From a virus, in the IMG/VR virus record IMGVR_UViG_3300046507_000703, positions 1 to 27,075 of that record: DNA of 27,075 bases. The stretch is one strand, 5' to 3'. The notes under the pieces were generated by a model, which saw only the letters and a program-made list of their open reading frames with translations, had not been told where the DNA came from and did no database searches. Positions 424 to 20,453 of this stretch are shown one piece after another (the first letter of the stretch is position 1; every line of letters begins with the position of its first letter). The translations under genes were made by a program, and so were the position numbers.

Positions 424-1068
424 TTAAAAGATATTTTTCGCGGCATTAAAGAGGCTATTGCCCGCCGTAACGACATTAAGAATGCTTTGTGCTTTATTTA
501 GAAATGGACTAACTCCACCGCCATTACCCCCATAAACAGGAACTTGTGAGCCACCGTAAATCGCATTTGAAGCTGTACCGACTTTGGCATTTTGGCCAAA
601 GTACATATATTTCATGTTCCCGCTAATTGTGAGAACTGATGACCGACTTTCTGAATCTAAATCACCAGGTTCAAAAGTAAATGCACAATCAATTAATTCA
701 TGAGCTTTAGTCCAGCGGTTAATACGACCATCATATAAAATGCAGCTTGTAGTTCCCCCTTGAGATAAAAGTAATTCTGCAAAATCGGCAATTTGCCCAG
801 TTTCAGTCTCCATCATGGTTACAGCCCCTTCATAAGAGGTTTTAGGCACACCTGCAACATGTGCTTGTAATCCACCAGCATAAGAAACTTCAGCGCTTTC
901 GTTATTTGTCGCAATTGGGCGTGGATAGGTTTTAAATAAAAGAGCAATATTTGGAGCAATTTGAGGTACAAGCATGGCATTACAAGCGAGCATCGCTGCA
1001 CCAAGCTGTTTAGTCGTTTCGTAATCGCTTTTGTATTCTTGCATCGTTTGAATAAATTGGGATTGCAT
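424..1068 (-). CDS. Tail tube-like structural protein
   Basis: This 214-residue protein has the look of a myovirus tube or tube-initiator subunit: an N-terminal helical part, then a beta-rich core (about residues 45-155) ending in a strand-like stretch (SSVLTISGNMKYMYFG), and a Gly/Ala/Asn-rich C-terminal tail from about residue 165. Tube subunits of about 150-220 aa are normal, and the gene is embedded among baseplate genes. The ATG at 1066-1068 has a strong AAGGAG ribosome binding site. That site lies in the loop of a 10-bp hairpin whose 3' arm contains the start codon. The assignment is by overall pattern, not by a diagnostic motif; another baseplate or tail-completion protein is possible. 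Confidence 0.55.
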   Translation of the reverse strand: MQSQFIQTMQEYKSDYETTKQLGAAMLACNAMLVPQIAPNIALLFKTYPRPIATNNESAEVSYAGGLQAHVAGVPKTSYEGAVTMMETETGQIADFAELLLSQGGTTSCILYDGRINRWTKAHELIDCAFTFEPGDLDSESRSSVLTISGNMKYMYFGQNAKVGTASNAIYGGSQVPVYGGNGGGVSPFLNKAQSILNVVTAGNSLFNAAKNIF

Positions 1069-1100
1069 GATGTTTAAACTCCTTCGATTTCATCATGCAA
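1063..1100 (-). promoter_or_regulatory. Hairpin enclosing start codon of tube-like gene
   Basis: Perfect 10-bp inverted repeat (TTGCATGATG with CATCATGCAA; arms 1063-1072 and 1091-1100) with an 18-base loop. The AAGGAG ribosome binding site (1079-1084) is in the loop and the start codon (1066-1068) is in the 3' arm. Confidence 0.6.
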
Positions 1101-1126
1101 ATATTTAAATACTTAAAAATAGTGGC

Positions 1127-1143
1127 TTTTTTTTTCGTTCCAC
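1127..1143 (-). promoter_or_regulatory. GGAAC/A-tract element 1 (before tube-like gene)
   Basis: Minus strand GTGGAACGAAAAAAAAA, starting at the base after the gpI-like stop and about 75 bp before the tube-like ATG. It is one of eight copies in the window, all on the minus strand and all 65-85 bp before a gene start. It is probably a phage-specific promoter. Confidence 0.6.
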
Positions 1144-3890: not shown

Positions 3891-4526
3891 TTATTGCACC
3901 TCATTGCTTACTTGTAGAATTTGTTGTTTTCTTGCTTCCAATTTGCCTTTTAATTCATCACGTAACGCTGTTTTTTCAATTATTTCTTTATCCAGGTGAT
4001 CTAAGTTACTGCGTACTTCTTTAGTGCGTACAGAAACAGAAGTGCTACTAGTATTGCTGCCACCTGTTTTTTTAGGTATTACTACTTTTTCTTGTGCCTG
4101 GCGTTTATCAAATGCCGCCTGATTTTGACGTACACGTGTTGCAATTTCTTCTACTGCTTTGGCAAATACCGAAGCTGGCGATTTTCTATCGGCTTCATTA
4201 GCAGCAAGAGTATAGCGGCCGTTTTTCTGCGGGTTTACTTGTTCAAAGGTATCTGCGCTGAAGTGAAATAACTCACTTTTAAGTGGTAAATCTTTGCCAT
4301 TCAGCTTTACCCGCACGACATCGCCGTCAGTACGAACAACTAGCGTAATTGTCTGGCCATTTTCTAATACAAAATCTAAATCTTTTGTTGCTTCAGACGC
4401 GATTTTCTTCATTTTTTGGGCGATAAATGCCGTGACTATCTGGCCAGTCGCCTTAGAAATTCGCTCAATAAACTGTTTAACTAATGGTGAGTTCTCATTT
4501 ACGTTTACTAAATCAAAATTTGCCAT
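3891..4526 (-). CDS. Hypothetical protein; weak resemblance to DarA-type antirestriction proteins
   Basis: Starting at the ATG at 4524-4526 (MANFDLVNVNENSP) gives 211 residues; a TTG four codons upstream is unlikely. The N-terminal half has a helical segment, then a beta pattern, LENGQTITLVVRTDGDVVRVKLNGKDLPL in outline. This reminds me of the N-terminal domain of P1 DarA-like proteins, which are packaged in the head and protect incoming DNA from restriction. The C-terminal 60 residues form a charged coiled coil (about residues 150-205). No clear ribosome binding site is visible. Instead a perfect 11-bp inverted repeat ends four bases before the start codon. The DarA link is from memory and weak. 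Confidence 0.55.
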   Translation of the reverse strand: MANFDLVNVNENSPLVKQFIERISKATGQIVTAFIAQKMKKIASEATKDLDFVLENGQTITLVVRTDGDVVRVKLNGKDLPLKSELFHFSADTFEQVNPQKNGRYTLAANEADRKSPASVFAKAVEEIATRVRQNQAAFDKRQAQEKVVIPKKTGGSNTSSTSVSVRTKEVRSNLDHLDKEIIEKTALRDELKGKLEARKQQILQVSNEVQ

Positions 4527-4530
4527 GTTT

Positions 4531-4569
4531 AATATCAAAATTAGTTGGAATGGCCACTATTTTGATATT
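4531..4569 (-). promoter_or_regulatory. Inverted repeat before 4526 start codon
   Basis: Perfect 11-bp inverted repeat (AATATCAAAAT with ATTTTGATATT; arms 4531-4541 and 4559-4569) with a 17-base loop, ending four bases before the ATG. It could be an RNA hairpin or an operator. Confidence 0.55.
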
Positions 4570-4584
4570 TAGGATTTGCTGAAA

Positions 4585-4600
4585 TTTTTATTGTTCCCAA
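4585..4600 (-). promoter_or_regulatory. GGAAC/A-tract element 2 (before 4526 start)
   Basis: Minus strand TTGGGAACAATAAAAA, about 73 bp before the start of the DarA-like gene and downstream of the double terminator at 4691-4755. A fresh initiation site is therefore needed here, which supports a promoter role. Confidence 0.6.
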
Positions 4601-7623: not shown

Positions 7624-9423
7624 TTATGCGCCTACTACAGAGACTGGAAGGTTATGAACCAGAATAATCACACACTGATCAGCAAAGCGTTCAAGAGGGT
7701 TCAACTCAGATGCTTGTGTAGCCTGAATTGTTACACCTGACTCGAAGTCCACAGTGTTTGATTCACGAACGGTCATAGGGTTTGTTACAAAACCTACAAA
7801 TGGATTGCGTACAGCTTCACCAGAACGACCAACAACCATGATTTCAGCTGTATTGTCATGCTCGGCCAATAAGCCTGAGTCTGCCGGAACGTGATAAACG
7901 TTAATATTTCCGTCAATAGAACCAATACGTGTAATTTGGTTAGGAGAGCCAACCGCATTGGATACTTTTTTGTAGTGGGTATCGTCTGAAAGGTTGTCAA
8001 ATAGCACTGACATTTTGTCAGTTACGAAAATGTCGTGGCCAGATGGCACCACATCAAGAATGTGGTTAATAATTACTTTTGCAGAGCTGACGGTTACAAG
8101 CAATTCACGAGCTTGATCAGATGTGTTGTTAAATGATGGTGTGTTAGTCGCCCCACGTGATAAATCAGCGACTAATACGCGGTCAAAACCTTTCGCACGG
8201 CGCTTAATTGCTTTAAGTAAACGAAGGTTTTGCTCAAGCATGTACTTAGATGCCACAACAGCTGTAACAGCACCACGCATATCAACACCAAGCTCACGCT
8301 GCATTTGGTTGATTGCGTCATTTGATGCACGGTAAACAGCGCGCATTGGATATGCATAAACACGGCGGGCAACAAGATCAATGTCTACAGAAGGAACAAG
8401 GAGAGCCGGCTTGCCATCTACTTTACGTTCATAATCTGCAATTAAGTTGATTGTTACTTCAGCGTCATCTGGTAATTCGTCTGCAAATTCAACATATACC
8501 GTATTGGCTGTTAAATTAGCTTCACCAGATCGAACACGAACATCAATTTTGCCGCCGTTACCATCATCAACTTTAAGGTTATGTTTTGGTACTGGGATAA
8601 TGCTAGATACACCATCAAATTTGGCATGGTTTACAGTTGCATCATTACCAACTTCAACACCATTCACATAAATACGAACACGGCCACCCATAAACGGTAA
8701 TGGTTTAGCATTTGCATCAGGTGTGCGCTTGTCGTTATCTGCATACGATACAGTTGGCGATAAGGTATATTTTGTTGGAGTTACAGCATCTTTAGTTGCT
8801 GCAAATTCAAACTGAGAGTCAAAGTATTGGCGTGTAGCAATTGAACCGTCTAAATAATCGTTTTCTTTAACTTCACCGAATGTATTTTTTGCGACATTAC
8901 GGCCGTAAATAATTGGAACTTCATTCGAGCCATTCACGTTTGGCAAATAGGCTACAAGTGGTAAAGAGTTTGCAATACGGGTTGCAATTGTCACGACTGC
9001 TAAGGATGGAATAACAGAGTTTGATTCCATACCAGAAGAATTTAATTGAGTCCCGTTAGAACTATCGTATTCGTCTTTAACAACCTTTAAACCAGCACTT
9101 AAAGCAGATGCGATCATGTCAGCACGTGGTAAATCACCACCGTTTGCTGCTTGATAAGCAGTAATACCAGTTTCAATTGCACGTAAGATATATGGCTGGC
9201 CATCTTTGCCAATGCTGTCGAAAATATCAACTAATGTTTGTGGGATTGCAGATTCAACAATATTTTCTTTTACTGCGGTGTCATAGCAGCTGTCATACGC
9301 ATCAACAACGCTTGCATTACTTTTACTACGAATGTTTTGGAAATCAGCTAAGAAACGATTTGTCGCAACAAGCTCGCGTTGCATTGCTTCATATTCTTTC
9401 TTTTCGCTTTCAGTCAAAGCCAT
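7624..9423 (-). CDS. Major capsid protein, HK97-fold
   Basis: This 599-residue protein has the layout of a large-phage major capsid protein: a helical N-terminal region (about residues 1-130), a conserved block (SLAVVTIATRIANSLPLVAYLP, about 140-160), an inserted beta-rich domain at about 240-335 (Ig-like pattern, GGRVRIYVNGVEV) and a C-terminal A-domain-like part (SAKVIINHILDVVPSGHDIFV). Such proteins form the icosahedral shell. It stands first behind a GGGAAC element with its own terminator-like hairpin after the stop. Its GAGG ribosome binding site lies inside one arm of a perfect 14-bp inverted repeat, unusual for what should be the most abundant phage protein. Confidence 0.8.
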   Translation of the reverse strand: MALTESEKKEYEAMQRELVATNRFLADFQNIRSKSNASVVDAYDSCYDTAVKENIVESAIPQTLVDIFDSIGKDGQPYILRAIETGITAYQAANGGDLPRADMIASALSAGLKVVKDEYDSSNGTQLNSSGMESNSVIPSLAVVTIATRIANSLPLVAYLPNVNGSNEVPIIYGRNVAKNTFGEVKENDYLDGSIATRQYFDSQFEFAATKDAVTPTKYTLSPTVSYADNDKRTPDANAKPLPFMGGRVRIYVNGVEVGNDATVNHAKFDGVSSIIPVPKHNLKVDDGNGGKIDVRVRSGEANLTANTVYVEFADELPDDAEVTINLIADYERKVDGKPALLVPSVDIDLVARRVYAYPMRAVYRASNDAINQMQRELGVDMRGAVTAVVASKYMLEQNLRLLKAIKRRAKGFDRVLVADLSRGATNTPSFNNTSDQARELLVTVSSAKVIINHILDVVPSGHDIFVTDKMSVLFDNLSDDTHYKKVSNAVGSPNQITRIGSIDGNINVYHVPADSGLLAEHDNTAEIMVVGRSGEAVRNPFVGFVTNPMTVRESNTVDFESGVTIQATQASELNPLERFADQCVIILVHNLPVSVVGA

Positions 9424-9425
9424 TA

Positions 9426-9474
9426 AAAATTACCTCATTGTGCCTTTATGCGGCGGTTGAAATGAGGTAATTTT
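9426..9474 (-). promoter_or_regulatory. 14-bp hairpin sequestering the major capsid ribosome binding site
   Basis: Perfect 14-bp inverted repeat (AAAATTACCTCATT with AATGAGGTAATTTT; arms 9426-9439 and 9461-9474) with a 21-base loop. In the mRNA the 3' arm contains the GAGG ribosome binding site (9433-9436), with the ATG following at 9421-9423. Folded, it should block initiation. Confidence 0.7.
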
Positions 9475-9495
9475 GCAAGCCCTAAAAAGTGCTAA

Positions 9496-9510
9496 TTTTT
9501 TTTGTTCCCA
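9496..9510 (-). promoter_or_regulatory. GGAAC/A-tract element 3 (before major capsid gene)
   Basis: Minus strand TGGGAACAAAAAAAA, 85 bp before the capsid start codon. It is the only promoter-like signal between the 9550 gene and the capsid gene. Confidence 0.65.
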
Positions 9511-11427: not shown

Positions 11428-12894
11428 TTAGGCGTTAAGCTGAATTGCTTTATAAACTGTGCTACCCACGATGCATGACACAACGATAGGCTCACTAGGA
11501 GAAAGCACTCTACCTAAATCAATTGTAAAGTCTCCATGTGCTACTTCAGTGTCTAATGTGCTGTTATCTTCAAATGTCACTCGAATCGTTGCATTCGCAT
11601 CAACACTACCTGTAACACTTTGAGCGCCATCTAAAGCAGCTGTAAACGTAGTAATCCCTGAGTTAATAATGTCTAAACTGTAATGCAATTCAACTTGTGC
11701 TGAAGCGGTCGAAACAAGAACAGAATCGCCGTCATTTAATGCAGAGGTTAATACAGTATTCCATTTGCCTTGAGCATTACTTAGCACTTCAAAAGCGGTA
11801 TTTACTCCGGCAATAATGGTGACTTCTGTTTGAGCTTCAGCTGTACCTTCTAAATGTAGAGAATCAATTATTTTTGCAGATAGTTTGAACTCAATATCAG
11901 ACGGGCCAGTATATGTGACATTTGGTAATGCAATGCCATCAATCGAAATTTCAACAATGGCATCTGTAGGTAATCCGGCAACGAGATCCACTTTCCATAC
12001 ACCACTAGCACTAGCCATTGTTGTAAATTCACCATATTTAGGCGTTTTTATTAAGATATTGGCCATTGGGGAAGACGTACCAGCAACAAATTGACCGGCT
12101 GCCTGGTCCAGCTGTACGTTTATTTTATAAAAGGTTTCACTTTGAGTAAGGGAATGTTGGTCATTTAAGCTTACAAAGATACTTACGATATCCTGGTGCA
12201 ATAACGGCGCTGTTAGCTCGATAGCCCACGATAAATCATTTGCTGCAATCGCCTGATATGTCTGTTCACCAATCGCTACATTTACTGTTGCACGTACATC
12301 TTCGACCGTTCCTGTAATTCTCTGGCCATCATTTGAAATATCAAATGTAAAACCTTCGTTTAATGGCTCTACCGGTTCTTCTCGTTCGATATTAAACACA
12401 ATAAATGACGTATCAAGAGTAGTGTCATCCACTAGAATTTTATTAGTACCAAATTGAAGCTGTTTCTCTACATCTAGTTGGTAATTCCAGGTGCTATCAC
12501 TTTCTGGCAATACACGAACTGAGCTGTCATCTTCAAAAATTATTCGTACAGTGCTATCAATTGGCGCCGTCCCTTTTAAAGTTTGGGTTACGGCGTCATA
12601 AACGGCTGTTAAATGGGCCTGATCTGTATCTATGGCATCGTTAGAAGAAGAATATGAAAAAGCTTGTGTACCAAGTAAATTATTGGCCGTATTGAGAATA
12701 CGCTTAATGGTTTTATCGTTAATGTCGCCCTTTGCTTCAATATGATAAGTTGCGCCGGCTGGCAAACTCACAGTATGTTTTGCTTCTAAAATTAATTCTG
12801 CACCATCTGAAAATGAGGTTTCATTCACAACGGTTTGACGATCTGAATTAATAGTTGTAGTAACTGTGTGCTTTAGTTCTTGGCCAAAATCCAT
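11428..12894 (-). CDS. Ig-like repeat protein, likely virion surface decoration
   Basis: Started at the ATG at 12892-12894 (MDFGQELKH) the product is 488 residues; a TTG four codons upstream is unlikely. From about residue 100 it consists of roughly five degenerate repeats of 75-95 residues with the bacterial Ig-like pattern: a G-T/S-V/A-x2-x-A-x-V start, then a Gly-x-W or similar turn (SGVWKVDL, QGKWNTVL) and a strand pair. Ig-like domains on phage particles bind weakly to carbohydrates and are often dispensable. The N-terminal 95 residues differ and may be the attachment domain. It is first in a four-gene operon behind a GTGGAAC element. Confidence 0.7.
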   Translation of the reverse strand: MDFGQELKHTVTTTINSDRQTVVNETSFSDGAELILEAKHTVSLPAGATYHIEAKGDINDKTIKRILNTANNLLGTQAFSYSSSNDAIDTDQAHLTAVYDAVTQTLKGTAPIDSTVRIIFEDDSSVRVLPESDSTWNYQLDVEKQLQFGTNKILVDDTTLDTSFIVFNIEREEPVEPLNEGFTFDISNDGQRITGTVEDVRATVNVAIGEQTYQAIAANDLSWAIELTAPLLHQDIVSIFVSLNDQHSLTQSETFYKINVQLDQAAGQFVAGTSSPMANILIKTPKYGEFTTMASASGVWKVDLVAGLPTDAIVEISIDGIALPNVTYTGPSDIEFKLSAKIIDSLHLEGTAEAQTEVTIIAGVNTAFEVLSNAQGKWNTVLTSALNDGDSVLVSTASAQVELHYSLDIINSGITTFTAALDGAQSVTGSVDANATIRVTFEDNSTLDTEVAHGDFTIDLGRVLSPSEPIVVSCIVGSTVYKAIQLNA

Positions 12895-12947
12895 AACTCT
12901 ATCCAATTAAAAGAAAGAGTAATTTTGAATAGTGGCCAAAGGTGTGA

Positions 12948-12963
12948 TTTTTTTTGTTCCACC
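12948..12963 (-). promoter_or_regulatory. GGAAC/A-tract element 4 (before Ig-repeat gene)
   Basis: Minus strand GGTGGAACAAAAAAAA, 67 bp before the Ig-repeat gene start and just downstream of the terminator of the non-coding RNA. The structural operon is thus insulated from the inserted unit. Confidence 0.6.
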
Positions 12964-13170: not shown

Positions 13171-14079
13171 ATGCCGAATACAATAACTTACACTTCTCTT
13201 TCTAATGTAATACCACAACAACGACTATTAATGTTTGAAAAAGTTTTTCAAACAACAGATCCAATCGAAGTGCATGGTGCATATATTTGGACTGTGAAAG
13301 TAGCTGCTAGTTTACTCCCTTTATTAAGTACGTTTGAAGTAGCATTGCGAAATGCCATACATACGTGTGCTACCAAAAATATTGGCCTTGATTGGTATGA
13401 TATTTTAGAAACAAAAGTAAGAACTAAATTTCATCATGGCCAACGAGATCAAAACAATATTAATTGGCACTTTGGAGAAGTGAAAAGAATCAAACAAAAG
13501 ATTGCTGGGAAAACACCGCCTAATGGCTTAACAAAACACGATTTACTAGTAGCAAAAATGGATTTTGGCTTTTGGGATAATCTACTAAGAGAATGCTTTT
13601 CTAAAAACAATTATTCAAAAGCGTTATGGCCAAAGTATTTAAATGATGTATTTCCTAACTTACCAAGAAACCATACAAACTCCATAATTCAAAGAGAAGT
13701 CTCATCTTTGCGAGAGTTGCGAAATGAAATCTCTCACCACTCACCAATCTGGAAAAAAACGAATGTCGTTGATGACATTACGGCTATTCAATTTATTAAT
13801 TCTCAAATTGATAAAATTATAGAAATGATTAATTGGTTGTCTAAAGATGCTGTTAATTGGCTTGAGGTCCACATGCTACAAGCAGAAGCAAGAAGGATTG
13901 CAACCAAAGAGTTTCTATATCTTTGCCAACGCAAAAATATGCAAAATATGGAAATAAAGTGTAGCACTTTTAAACGTCAAATCACTTCCAAGCTGAAAGC
14001 ATTAGACAAAGATGCCTTCACTCTAATTAAACATAATGAAAAATGCCTATATGTGCTGACCAAAATTTCAGTTCGCTAA
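13171..14079 (+). CDS. Abi-like HEPN protein (Abi_2/AbiF-related), putative RNase toxin
   Basis: This is the only plus-strand gene. The 302-residue product shows the Abi-like pattern: FEVALRNAIH (residues 55-64), DFGFWDNLL (131-139), LWPKYLNDVFPNL (152-164) and LRNEISHHSPIW (183-194). The last contains Arg184-x4-His189, a canonical HEPN RNase motif. Arg60/His64 form a shorter RxxxH in a family-typical block. Abi-like HEPN proteins cut RNA and stop growth on infection. The C-terminal 100 residues are helical and basic. No Shine-Dalgarno sequence is visible. A plausible promoter (TGGTCA-N18-TATCAT, 13105-13134) shares its -10 region with the promoter of the divergent RNA. Family assignment is good; the toxin role is inferred from relatives. 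Confidence 0.75.
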   Translation: MPNTITYTSLSNVIPQQRLLMFEKVFQTTDPIEVHGAYIWTVKVAASLLPLLSTFEVALRNAIHTCATKNIGLDWYDILETKVRTKFHHGQRDQNNINWHFGEVKRIKQKIAGKTPPNGLTKHDLLVAKMDFGFWDNLLRECFSKNNYSKALWPKYLNDVFPNLPRNHTNSIIQREVSSLRELRNEISHHSPIWKKTNVVDDITAIQFINSQIDKIIEMINWLSKDAVNWLEVHMLQAEARRIATKEFLYLCQRKNMQNMEIKCSTFKRQITSKLKALDKDAFTLIKHNEKCLYVLTKISVR

Positions 14080-14128: not shown

Positions 14129-16174
14129 TTATAACGCTGTTATTTTTACTGAAGCACTCCCAGCTTCACCTGATTTACCATTATTTAATTCAGGTGTTAT
14201 CGTATCTGGTAAACCAAAATCACCTACAATTAATTCAGCCGTAAGAGCTTCTGCCGAATTGTTTTCTAAAACAAAATGGATATGGGCGCCTGAGCCACCT
14301 CCACCCCCATAACATCGGTGTTTACGAGTCTCAACTGTATATCCCCCTTCTCCACCAGCTCCAAACTTCCAACGTGTCGAACCTCCACGTGTGTCTCTAT
14401 TACACCAATCATGCGCCGTTTCAAGACGTGCTTTATCTCCATCAGACTGTGAAAGAATTTTTGCATTACCTAGTTTTTCTACGTTTGCCAGCCCCCCGTT
14501 TCCAGCCACTCCTTGTAAATAGGCTGAACCATTATTCCATGCCCCTCGTGTGCCTCCTTCCCCTCCACCAGCAACAATTTTTAGTGAATTTGATATGGTA
14601 AAAGATGTATTTTCACCGTTATCCATTTTCTTCCATTCTGCAACATAGTTTGATGCCCAAAGGGAACCAGCACCAGAACCACCCGCCCCAACAAGGTGTA
14701 CTTCTGCCTTACAATTTGCTGGTATGATAATTTCGTAAGTTCCAGCTCGGTATAAATTAATATCCCCTTCTTGAAGAAAAACAGCCCAACTCACTTTTCC
14801 GGTATAACCCACCCTATTTGTACCTGAACGGTTATAAACATTAATATCAAACCTATCTTTATATCTCGTTGTATCCCAAGCTTCATGTACTCCTTCAGGA
14901 GTTACTAGGACAACTACATTTGGATCAGTAAAATCAATAGATTGCCCATCAGGACGATTAATTGAAAAGGTTCCTATTTCAGATACACCTGCCATAAGCA
15001 GATAAGGAAAAAATGACGGCGGTGTTAGATCAGTACCATCTTTGGGTTTAAAAACTGCATAATTTACTAACCCTTGATAACCAATTTGATTTGTACCTGA
15101 GCGATTATAAATTGTCGCATTAAAGCCTTCTTTTGTTCGATTTAAAGACCAGGCTTCGTGTAATCCTTCAGGGGTAATCAAAATTGCCGCATTTTCAAAA
15201 TCTATTGTTTTGTCTAAAGGCTGTTTTATTACAAGCTGTCCTGTTGAATTAATAACTCCCTTCATCTCTAATTCAGGAAGTGATGAAATAGCGACTGGTG
15301 AATCTGAGGCATCGGACAAAACAGCCCAATTTAAAGGTCCATTGAAACCTACACGATTTGTCCCGGAACGCGAAAAAATATTAATCCCAAATGAATTTTC
15401 TAAACGAGAGATTGACCATGCCTCATGCGCTCCTTCTGGATTGACCAGAATTGCGTCAATATTTGCTTTTAAGTTCCCCTTAAAGTCTTCAACTGAAATT
15501 GTATTAATAGAACCTACATTTCTACGGCCAACATAAAGTGGTTTGTCAAACAAAGTTGTAAATAGATCAATTAATTGTCGCACTTGAATTATATAAGATC
15601 GAATAATTGCAGCTACGTTTAGTCGCATTGCATACTGATCATGGGGGTTAAATTCAGATAAATGGGCGCGCAATATGTCCATTATGTATTTCTTATATTG
15701 CGGGTGAGGATCCTTATGCTGAAGGTGCAAGGTTAGTAAAGCTTGAAGTAATTGCTCTTGAGGTGAAAAGGTTAATTTGATCTTTTTATTAGGTAAATCT
15801 TCAGCTAAAGCAATTGAAATATTAAAAGAAAAAAAACTCCCAACTTCAGTTTGAAAAATATAACCTTCGGACTTGGCCAAGACGGCGACCAATATTCCTT
15901 TTTCATCATAAACACCCAACTCAGATACTTTTTTTGTATCGGATAGTTGCCCCATCGCAGTGAGCACTAAACAATGACTATCCTGGTCTACATAACCCCC
16001 AATAAGTGGAAAGTCTGCCCATTTTTGCGCTAGTTCTTCAGTATGTGCCGAATGTTCATAGTTCCCTGAACCAAGGCCCACATGTGAGAAAGAAATATTA
16101 AAGCCGCTACCTAAGTAATCCAACATAGATAAGCGGCCAGCATCAGTTAATGTAAGAATCAGATAATCAGACAT
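14129..16174 (-). CDS. Tail fibre/adhesin A, with three RSGTN repeats and glycine-rich tip
   Basis: This 681-residue protein begins with a domain like the P2 gpH/DUF3751 fibre N-terminus (SELGVYDEKGILVAV, about residues 84-98), which attaches to the baseplate. Two short HxDPHPQY-type motifs follow (about 153-181). Three repeats of about 90 residues start near residues 244, 333 and 424, each with PEGxHEAW, then RSGTNxxGY/F and (N/S)W/YAV. Residues from about 494 to the end are glycine-rich with a beta pattern, like phage adhesin tips. A closely related fibre gene lies directly upstream. The start ATG lacks a Shine-Dalgarno sequence and sits four bases after a perfect 12-bp inverted repeat. Confidence 0.75.
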   Translation of the reverse strand: MSDYLILTLTDAGRLSMLDYLGSGFNISFSHVGLGSGNYEHSAHTEELAQKWADFPLIGGYVDQDSHCLVLTAMGQLSDTKKVSELGVYDEKGILVAVLAKSEGYIFQTEVGSFFSFNISIALAEDLPNKKIKLTFSPQEQLLQALLTLHLQHKDPHPQYKKYIMDILRAHLSEFNPHDQYAMRLNVAAIIRSYIIQVRQLIDLFTTLFDKPLYVGRRNVGSINTISVEDFKGNLKANIDAILVNPEGAHEAWSISRLENSFGINIFSRSGTNRVGFNGPLNWAVLSDASDSPVAISSLPELEMKGVINSTGQLVIKQPLDKTIDFENAAILITPEGLHEAWSLNRTKEGFNATIYNRSGTNQIGYQGLVNYAVFKPKDGTDLTPPSFFPYLLMAGVSEIGTFSINRPDGQSIDFTDPNVVVLVTPEGVHEAWDTTRYKDRFDINVYNRSGTNRVGYTGKVSWAVFLQEGDINLYRAGTYEIIIPANCKAEVHLVGAGGSGAGSLWASNYVAEWKKMDNGENTSFTISNSLKIVAGGGEGGTRGAWNNGSAYLQGVAGNGGLANVEKLGNAKILSQSDGDKARLETAHDWCNRDTRGGSTRWKFGAGGEGGYTVETRKHRCYGGGGGSGAHIHFVLENNSAEALTAELIVGDFGLPDTITPELNNGKSGEAGSASVKITAL

Positions 16175-16178
16175 AAAT

Positions 16179-16233
16179 AAATATAGGTTTATAGCTTGGC
16201 TTTATTATTAGCTTTGACAGAAAACCTATATTT
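16179..16233 (-). promoter_or_regulatory. 12-bp inverted repeat before fibre A
   Basis: Perfect 12-bp inverted repeat (AAATATAGGTTT with AAACCTATATTT; arms 16179-16190 and 16222-16233) with a 31-base loop. It ends four bases before the start codon, and the distal arm overlaps the A-tract of element 5. No Shine-Dalgarno sequence is present. Confidence 0.6.
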
Positions 16234-16244
16234 TTTTGTTCCCA
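16231..16244 (-). promoter_or_regulatory. GGAAC/A-tract element 5 (before fibre A)
   Basis: Minus strand TGGGAACAAAAAAA, two bases after the stop of fibre B and about 70 bp before the start of fibre A. The A-tract runs into one arm of a 12-bp inverted repeat, so the element and the repeat overlap. Confidence 0.6.
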
Positions 16245-16245
16245 G

Positions 16246-18291
16246 TTATACCTCTCTGCTCAAAATCACAAAAGAAGGTCCACCATCATCGCCAGATAAA
16301 CCCCATCCGGTATGACCTTTGCCGTTATCCCCAACAACTAAATCGAATACCACTGTTTCTTGGCCATAGTTCGTATATTCCACTAGCAGATAACCACCTG
16401 AGCCGCCAGAACCACCATAAGACCAGCGCTCTTCACCAATACCCCATGAACCGGCACCACCAGCGTTTGTTACATCAAGACCTGAATCAAAAGAAGTGGC
16501 CACGGCGCCAATTTGTCGTTCCCAACGTGTCGTAATAACCGCATCGTTTCCGTCTACATTTTTTAAAACAGTAAATCCGGTTGTAAGGTTTTCGATAATG
16601 TTTTCACCGCCTTCACCTGGTGCACCGTTAAAGTAATGTGAACCATTACCCCAAGCGCCCCCAGTCCCGCCTTTACCACCTCCGGCCGTAAACTTGGTTG
16701 TTCCAAGCGTTAAAATTGTGTCTTCTGCATTAGTACCATTCGCCCAAATGGTTACAGGTGTATAAGCAGAACCGCCACCACCGCCACCACCAGCGTACAT
16801 TGCAAAATTAACAGTTTTACCTGGCTGAACCTCAATTTTATGGGTGCCTTTATAAAATACTGTGCGTTGCACTGGTTTTGTTGTGATGAAAACAGCCCAA
16901 TTTACAAGGCCGCTATATCCAATTGTGTTTGTCCCGGAGCGTCCAAACACTTCGACTTTAAACCCATCTTTCTGCCGGGTAATAGTCCAAGCTTCATGAG
17001 CACTTTCCGGAGTAATAATTGGTAAGTATGTAGGATCTGTAAAGTCGTGTCCTTCAGGAGCCGGAATTAAAAATGAACTTCCTGAAGCAACCCCAGTAAT
17101 TAAATTGAAGGGGTATTTATCCCGCTGAAGTGCTGCGTTGTTCGCTTTGAATAGTGACCAATTCACCCGGCCATTATAGGCAATACGATTAGTCCCGGAG
17201 CGCGCCCAAATGTTTATATTAAAACTTTCAGCTATACGGGTAACTTCCCATGCTTCATGAGTGCCTTCAGGTGTCAGTAGCAACACAACCTCATTGGTGT
17301 TATATGCCAGCGTTTCCCATGCTTCACGTAAAATAGTGAGCTTTTCTCCGGCCTCAAATACCCCTGACTTAATCTCATTGGCCAGTTGATTAGTTTTGGC
17401 CACAAATCCACGTTTTAGTAATGTGCGTTCAGTATCAATAATCACATAATCAGAATGGCCAGCATACGCAATATTATTTGTCCCGGAGCGATTAGTAACT
17501 GTTGTACTAAATCTTGCAGTCTCTCGAACTGTAGACCAGCCTTCGTGCTTAGCTTCAGGGCAAAAGTGGTAAACAATAGATCGACCTGACCAGGAATAAT
17601 TAGCACCCTTACGGCGTTCAGCTGTCACAGTTTCAGTAGTTGCATAACCAGCCTGAAGCAATGGTGGAAATAGGTATTCTGTTAATCCCAGTAATAAGCC
17701 AATCTGATTATCCAGCTTCTTAGTCTCATCTTTAAGAAATGACTTTAATGCATATTGCGGGTGTGGATCTGGTTCATTGATGTGTTGAGTAATAAGCTGA
17801 CCAGCAAACACTTTGTACTGCGGGTGTGGATCCTCTTGAAGCGTATGCTGTTGCATAAGCTGGGTGGCAATTCCCCCTTGGCCATCTAAAACAATGTCAA
17901 TATTATCGGCGCCCACTGCATTTAAAACTAATCCAAAATTCGCAACATAATCAATGCCAGGATAGAGACGGAAAAAACCACCTTCAGGTTTTGAAGCTAC
18001 CGCAAAAAGCACACCAGTTGAAGTATATAAACCAATTTCACTCACTTGCTTTTCATACTGAAAATTCATAATCAGCATCATGCGAAGGGTGAAAGAATTA
18101 ATTTCTACTCCACCAGCTGAAATACCATTCTCAGTAAACGGCGCTGCTAACGCCGTTCTATCTGTTGTAGGTACATATTGGCCAGCGCCTAAAACCACTT
18201 TAGAAATAGAAAGCTTTATATTTTTTTCATTCGCATCTAGCTGGGCATTTAAACCAGCTTTGGTCACAACAAAATCAATATTTTCAGACAT
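16246..18291 (-). CDS. Tail fibre/adhesin B, paralogue of fibre A
   Basis: The start at ATG 18289-18291 (MSENIDFVVTKAG) matches the N-terminus of fibre A. An open frame continues 23 codons upstream but would run through the GTGGAAC element, so it is rejected. The product is 681 residues, the same length as fibre A. It has the same order: gpH/DUF3751-like head (SEIGLYTSTGVLFAV, about 84-98), two DPHPQY motifs (about 154-180), three repeats (HEGW/HEAW at about 249, 345 and 432, each followed by RSGTN) and a glycine-rich tip from about 497. Two fibres with differing tips would widen or refine receptor binding. Its weak GAG ribosome binding site lies in a hairpin loop. Confidence 0.75.
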   Translation of the reverse strand: MSENIDFVVTKAGLNAQLDANEKNIKLSISKVVLGAGQYVPTTDRTALAAPFTENGISAGGVEINSFTLRMMLIMNFQYEKQVSEIGLYTSTGVLFAVASKPEGGFFRLYPGIDYVANFGLVLNAVGADNIDIVLDGQGGIATQLMQQHTLQEDPHPQYKVFAGQLITQHINEPDPHPQYALKSFLKDETKKLDNQIGLLLGLTEYLFPPLLQAGYATTETVTAERRKGANYSWSGRSIVYHFCPEAKHEGWSTVRETARFSTTVTNRSGTNNIAYAGHSDYVIIDTERTLLKRGFVAKTNQLANEIKSGVFEAGEKLTILREAWETLAYNTNEVVLLLTPEGTHEAWEVTRIAESFNINIWARSGTNRIAYNGRVNWSLFKANNAALQRDKYPFNLITGVASGSSFLIPAPEGHDFTDPTYLPIITPESAHEAWTITRQKDGFKVEVFGRSGTNTIGYSGLVNWAVFITTKPVQRTVFYKGTHKIEVQPGKTVNFAMYAGGGGGGGSAYTPVTIWANGTNAEDTILTLGTTKFTAGGGKGGTGGAWGNGSHYFNGAPGEGGENIIENLTTGFTVLKNVDGNDAVITTRWERQIGAVATSFDSGLDVTNAGGAGSWGIGEERWSYGGSGGSGGYLLVEYTNYGQETVVFDLVVGDNGKGHTGWGLSGDDGGPSFVILSREV

Positions 18292-18321
18292 GCACATAAC
18301 TCGATAAAACATTATGCACAT
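18290..18321 (-). promoter_or_regulatory. Hairpin overlapping start codon of fibre B
   Basis: As RNA, AUGUGCAUAA pairs with UUAUGUGCAU over 10 pairs with two G-U (arms 18290-18299 and 18312-18321) and a 12-base loop. The start codon overlaps the 3' arm and the weak GAG ribosome binding site is in the loop, as in the tube-like gene. Confidence 0.5.
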
Positions 18322-18346
18322 TGTCCGATTGCGTGATTTCGGCTTA

Positions 18347-18360
18347 TTTTTTTGTTCCAC
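18347..18360 (-). promoter_or_regulatory. GGAAC/A-tract element 6 (before fibre B)
   Basis: Minus strand GTGGAACAAAAAAA, two bases after the terminase stop and 69 bp before the fibre B start. Confidence 0.6.
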
Positions 18361-20383: not shown

Positions 20384-20417
20384 TAAAAAAGACTCATAAC
20401 CGGAGGGCTACAAGTCT
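20384..20417 (-). promoter_or_regulatory. Attenuator-like hairpin before terL
   Basis: AGACTTGTAGCC pairs with GGTTATGAGTCT over 12 pairs including three G-U, with a four-base loop (CTCC), followed by TTTTTTA and then the ATG. It has the shape of an intrinsic terminator placed directly before the terminase start codon. No ribosome binding site is visible. Confidence 0.5.
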
Positions 20418-20438
20418 ATTTAGGCGAAAATGAGCCTA

Positions 20439-20453
20439 TTTTTTTTGTTCCAC
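20439..20453 (-). promoter_or_regulatory. GGAAC/A-tract element 7 (before terL)
   Basis: Minus strand GTGGAACAAAAAAAA, 70 bp before the terminase start. A 12-pair hairpin with a T-run lies between it and the ATG. Confidence 0.6.

Follow-up and report, generated by a model that had tools for sequence, protein, structure and literature searches.

A probable read-through lock over the capsid ribosome binding site, built from the gene's own late promoter, in P1-like Acinetobacter phages

The transposase genes of IS10 and IS50 were reportedly described by Davis et al. in 1985 (cited in PMC2965389) as protected from external promoters. In these elements, the ribosome binding site (RBS) is hidden in read-through RNA but not in transcripts that begin at the element's own promoter. 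In bacteriophage T4, the RBSs of genes e, soc, 49 and I-TevI are hidden in a stem only in the longer, earlier transcripts, and a late promoter inside or beside the 5' arm gives an mRNA without that arm (PMC3014915, PMC2988022). The effect can be large: translation of gene e falls 100-fold when the structure can form (PMC3014915, PMC2988022). The kind of mechanism considered here, similar to that of T4 gene e, is therefore known. Its use differs in extent: IS10 and IS50 have one such gene per element, at the terminal repeat, and T4 has the arrangement at a few genes, whereas in the phage group studied here it is found at a set of late promoters that comprises most of them. The literature searched contains no report of such hairpins in Acinetobacter phages or in P1, and within it the regulon-wide use in P1-like Acinetobacter phages and P1 appears to be undescribed.

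The window, meaning the whole analyzed stretch of 27,075 nucleotides (IMG/VR record IMGVR_UViG_3300046507_000703), carries on its (-) strand a 599-aa gene (7624..9423, phrog_1014) that codes for the major capsid protein, as judged by PHROG and structure matches. The AlphaFold model of the product finds the phage P1 head as its best PDB match (E 2.6e-12), followed by the S6 and T4 capsids; annotated homologues occur in Acinetobacter phage ABMM1 (as 'head vertex') and in Xanthomonas phage Rb1 (as 'major capsid'). The leader of this gene contains a perfect inverted repeat (9426-9439, AAAATTACCTCATT; 9461-9474, AATGAGGTAATTTT), complementary at 14 of 14 base pairs, with 21 nt between the arms. It is the longest perfect inverted repeat of the window when loops of 3-60 nt are considered; about 0.007 repeats of such length and loop range are expected per window by chance, and none appeared in 12 Markov shuffles. 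On the coding (-) strand, the 5' arm (9461..9474) reads AAAATTACCTCATT and the 3' arm (9426..9439) reads AATGAGGTAATTTT, the latter containing the Shine-Dalgarno GAGG (9436-9433), which sits 9 nt ahead of the ATG at 9423. The stem forms in both the minimum free energy (MFE) and the centroid structure of the (-) strand RNA, at -25.4 kcal/mol against a mean of -12.7 for shuffled sequences (z -5.0, 0/200 as stable). The MFE structure also includes a small inner hairpin in the loop (9442..9454, (-)), pairing GCC 9454-9452 with GGC 9444-9442, and many relatives have it in their capsid leaders as well. These results bear out the first-pass annotation of the window, which had named the major capsid gene, the perfect 14-bp repeat over GAGG with its 21-base loop, and the GCC/GGC pairing inside that loop. 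A similarity search of the leader DNA against a phage collection gave no match, no Rfam family was found anywhere in the window, and further copies of the arm sequence within the window occur at chance level only.

Upstream of the capsid hairpin stands the motif GGAACAAAAAAAATTAGC, whose variants number seven in the window; every one is on the late coding strand, and the opposite strand has none. At least 13 copies are present in the relative G002 (50 kb; capsid protein 56-57% identical). When these 20 promoters are aligned (7 from the window and 13 from G002), GAAC is found in 20/20 and the A-tract is nearly invariant, the -10 hexamer [CT]AnA[AC]T retains A2 and A4 in 19 promoters each and T6 in all, and a pyrimidine occupies position -1, 6 nt after the hexamer, without exception (20/20). 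The resulting layout, GGAAC-N28-CAnAAT, looks like a sigma70-type -10 without a -35, as in an activator-dependent late promoter; a sigma70 consensus scan of the window yielded no convincing -35/-10 promoter. Sigma-54 and ECF readings of GGAAC were ruled out, the -10-like hexamer lying 28 nt away. The promoters also fall outside the T4 late class, where TATAAATA is used with a gp55-type sigma factor, in contrast to the [CT]AnA[AC]T with GGAAC 28 nt upstream observed here. The Lpa-dependent late promoters of P1, composed of a -10 and a 9-bp -22 box, are likewise of activator type and lack a -35, but the promoters of the window do not belong to their class: the conserved element is GGAAC with the A-tract at about -45 to -30, not a -22 box.

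At the capsid gene, the GGAAC element (9504..9508, (-)) is centered at about -43 from the predicted transcription start at 9463 (-), and the -10 hexamer CAAAAT (9470..9475, (-); offset 33-38 from GGAAC) overlaps the 5' arm of the stem. The predicted start lies 7 nt past the -10, next to the conserved -1 pyrimidine. Because this position falls inside the 5' arm, the late capsid mRNA would retain just 3 of the 14 arm bases, and the arm is mostly promoter DNA outside the late transcript. As at T4 gene e, then, the RBS is paired in RNA extending upstream of the late start, and the late promoter is positioned, by its sequence, so that late RNA would lose the 5' arm.

We consider it probable that the hairpin is a read-through lock for which the late promoter of the capsid gene supplies the first arm. 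RNA derived from upstream would carry both arms, fold and hide the Shine-Dalgarno; no terminator-like site was found in the part of the window that separates the capsid promoter from the gene upstream. The putative activator-dependent late promoter (GGAAC at about -45, no -35, -10 CAAAAT) would begin its transcript within the 5' arm, at about 9463, and the late mRNA without this arm would be translated. The -10/discriminator would double as promoter and anti-RBS arm in most late promoters of the phage group and in several of P1, and the benefit would be the avoidance of late protein from stray transcription in the lysogen or plasmid state or in the early phase. The first-pass annotation had proposed that the stem could delay capsid synthesis until late. 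The stem around the RBS is indeed conserved, and it would confine synthesis to the late phase, but the accompanying notion of a stem in need of opening, whether by a factor, ribosome coupling or cleavage, is probably wrong: the -10 and the discriminator are inside the 5' arm, and since the late start would drop that arm, the stem would exist only in read-through RNA and an opening factor would be unneeded. A transcript starting inside the hairpin had been named as an outcome that would speak against the proposal. Such a start is what we predict from the sequence, and it would be the way the hairpin works rather than a sign that it is meaningless.

Conservation of the stem, its nearness to the 5' end and the equally conserved inner hairpin could also be explained if the whole hairpin were 5'-terminal in the late mRNA, where it would stabilize the message, be opened by a factor or bind a capsid-pathway protein. 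We regard this as unlikely. The -10 box, at a constant spacing from GGAAC, lies within the 5' arm; the arm at w16174, like that of the ABMM1-type capsid leaders, adjoins GGAAC, far upstream of any start from that promoter; and, with its RBS fully paired, the most abundant protein would be poorly made. The stems also differ in sequence at each gene of one phage, with no common protein site visible, a pattern that speaks against a single RNA-binding protein shared by them all; the earlier suggestion that the stem binds a capsid-pathway protein is thus probably incorrect.

To see whether the overlap of promoter and arm is accidental, we computed pairing energies of short windows around the predicted start with the gene's own RBS zone, comparing them with those for the RBS zones of other genes. 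Start codons were picked by eye for the first 20 genes and automatically for the other 67, whose promoters were also collected automatically. Among the 20 promoters of the window and G002, own pairing exceeds swaps within the same phage (z -8.3, 0/1000), and does so with a 14-nt window at -11..+2 as well (z -11.3, 0/2000). The 67 promoters from 11 other Acinetobacter phages and prophages display the same preference (z -14.2, 0/1000), the leaders being homologous between phages and not independent in these counts. The signal is limited to about -12 to +6 with a peak at -6..+3, and 10-nt windows beginning at or after the predicted start show none. An extra signal at -36..-21 would fit the GGAAC-adjacent arms (ABMM1-type), the nested terminators described below, or both. 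Opening the RBS takes about 10.4 kcal/mol in RNA that reads through and 4.4 in late RNA; read-through RNA whose promoter part has been shuffled needs 6.8 (Wilcoxon p 1e-12). Motif-less genes of the same phages differ by no more than 0.3 kcal/mol between own and swapped pairing (z no stronger than -2.4), and pairing is absent at a few promoters of the set (g18193, g20996, g30162).

The dyad overlaps the -10 and the start site, which might point to a DNA element, either a repressor operator or a cruciform helping the promoter to open. We reject this reading as very improbable, since arm sequences are not shared from gene to gene, even among the dyads of one phage; the 3' arms lie on the RBS or start codon at varying distances from the promoter, G-U wobbles are kept, and loops of 10-30 nt are ill-suited to cruciforms. 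A regulatory switch in the late RNA unrelated to read-through, such as a pausing site or thermosensor, would accommodate the inner GCC/GGC hairpin of many relatives, which the lock alone leaves unexplained, but has little to recommend it when windows beginning inside the transcript carry no own-gene pairing signal.

The stem of the presumed read-through lock is kept in relatives, where its conservation was examined as the first-pass annotation had advised. An Acinetobacter oleivorans plasmid, 96% identical, has an unchanged capsid stem, with all changes in the leader located outside it. In the relatives G001-G003 (56-57% aa identity), the arms are AATTGCCTCAT/ATGAGGCAATC, a compensatory change of A-U to G-C. 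Distant capsid leaders have other sequences in the same layout, with AUAGGUUCC/GGAACCUAU in L037, GAGUUC/GAACUC in L102 and AUAG-GUAUC/GAUAC-CUAU in L099, often together with an inner GCC/GGC hairpin. The capsid 5' arm of the ABMM1 group adjoins GGAAC and is found farther upstream, still outside the late RNA. In a leader conserved in eight phages, 95.8% of cells are paired, and covariation lends moderate support: the score of 0.294, compared with <=0.115 when slid, is reached by 20/500 shuffles. The A. oleivorans plasmid (NZ_CP110255.1, L119; 82.6 kb) combines copper-resistance genes with a late region closely related to that of the window, and is likely a phage-plasmid.

Other late genes of the window display the same layout. 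At the terminase large subunit gene (20390..20451, (-)), GGAAC is at 20451-20447 and the predicted start at 20406, with arms at 20417-20409 (AGACTTGTA) and 20398-20390 (TATGAGTCT); the terminase homologue of G002 covaries in the arms (AGACTTACA/TGTAGGTCT). The tail fibre gene with ATG 18291 (18291..18358, (-); GGAAC 18358-18354, predicted start 18313) has a discriminator that pairs with the start region, and its own duplex of -13.3 kcal/mol beats all 18 swaps. The second tail fibre gene presents a variant (16175..16242, (-)), in which the 5' arm (16222-16237) is just downstream of GGAAC and upstream of the -10, and the 3' arm (16175-16190) abuts the ATG. A late promoter is accompanied by weaker RBS pairing at the gene with ATG 12894 (12894..12960, (-)), and by arms at 4559-4569, in the -10 region, and 4531-4541 at the Hdf-like gene with ATG 4526 (4526..4597, (-)). 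The tail tube gene (1063..1141, (-)) has a late promoter, and the ATG falls within its arms at 1091-1100 and 1063-1072. Roughly half of the arm is upstream of the predicted start, and about half would stay in the late RNA at w1068 and g24481.

Several further features of the late region deserve mention. The tail fibre genes (14129-16174 and 16246-18291, (-)) are related and in tandem; both belong to phrog_4545, are 681 aa long and have a late promoter and an RBS arm of their own. The Hdf-like antirestriction gene (3891-4526, (-), phrog_1620) has its own late promoter, and hdf of P1 lies downstream of LPdar. Promoter and UTR positions suggest that the true start codons are the ATGs at 12894, 18291 and 4526, and not those of the longer TTG/GTG frames starting at 12906, 18360 and 4538. 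An Abi_2-like gene (13171-14079, (+)) is located on the opposite strand within the late region and is possibly defence cargo.

In P1, whose late promoters were annotated independently, own pairing also exceeds swapped pairing (-7.8 vs -5.7, 0/5000), with 4/11 strong cases. The P1 capsid fold is related to that of the window capsid, and at the capsid promoter LP23 (AF234172, 58843-58818) the -10/discriminator pairs with the RBS, CTCTTCC of the discriminator matching GGAAGAG; an inner hairpin is present there too, like that of the window. LPdar and LPsit pair as well, both strongly: LPdar hides the RBS of lydA in the holin operon, and the pairing of LPsit extends across the -10. The LP23 pairing persists in Cronobacter phage JK004 through compensatory GTCCT/AGGAC, the whole JK004 leader folding no better than shuffles, and phage D6 has UUCACG/CGUGAA over a GTG start. 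On the annotated map, parB of P1 is the gene upstream of the capsid gene on the same strand; its expression in the P1 prophage suggests why a capsid lock would be useful. Applied to T4, the own-versus-swapped test recovered the known case of gene e, and the 21 tested late promoters showed no overall own-pairing signal.

We lean towards a wider reading for P1-like temperate phages, including the Acinetobacter phage-plasmids, in which the late promoter would be a two-way code, its -10/discriminator being antisense to the gene's own RBS or else, at certain genes, forming a terminator's first arm, and the whole late regulon would thus be immune to read-through in the prophage state. If true, a trick of few T4 genes would be a general design rule that silences prophage late genes in a group to which P1 and many Acinetobacter prophages belong. 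In phages without annotation, late promoters, start codons and transcription starts could be located easily from the layout. For coliphage P1, the reading predicts that the LP23 arm shields gene 23 from read-through out of the par operon, its neighbor on that strand.

A second possible insulation device is found in five genomes, at a gene of 94-97 aa that gene order marks as baseplate-wedge-like. Its promoter sits within the loop of a long stem with a T run after it, similar to an intrinsic terminator (L097:7766, L037:6252, L095:6144, L099:7844, L073:7854), as in AAAAGGACTAAAC-CATAAT-AGGTTTAGTCCTTTTTTT; the stem at L082:7794 is similar but less regular. Judging from this arrangement, read-through RNA would possibly terminate and RNA begun inside would escape. 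An ordinary terminator-like hairpin, read from sequence, precedes the ABMM1 capsid promoter, and together with the nested terminators it fits late genes insulated from read-through. At the capsid promoters of L037 and L073 (GGGGTGGAATTTC..AATTCCCCCTTTTT), the GGAAT promoter element itself overlaps a hairpin that resembles an intrinsic terminator.
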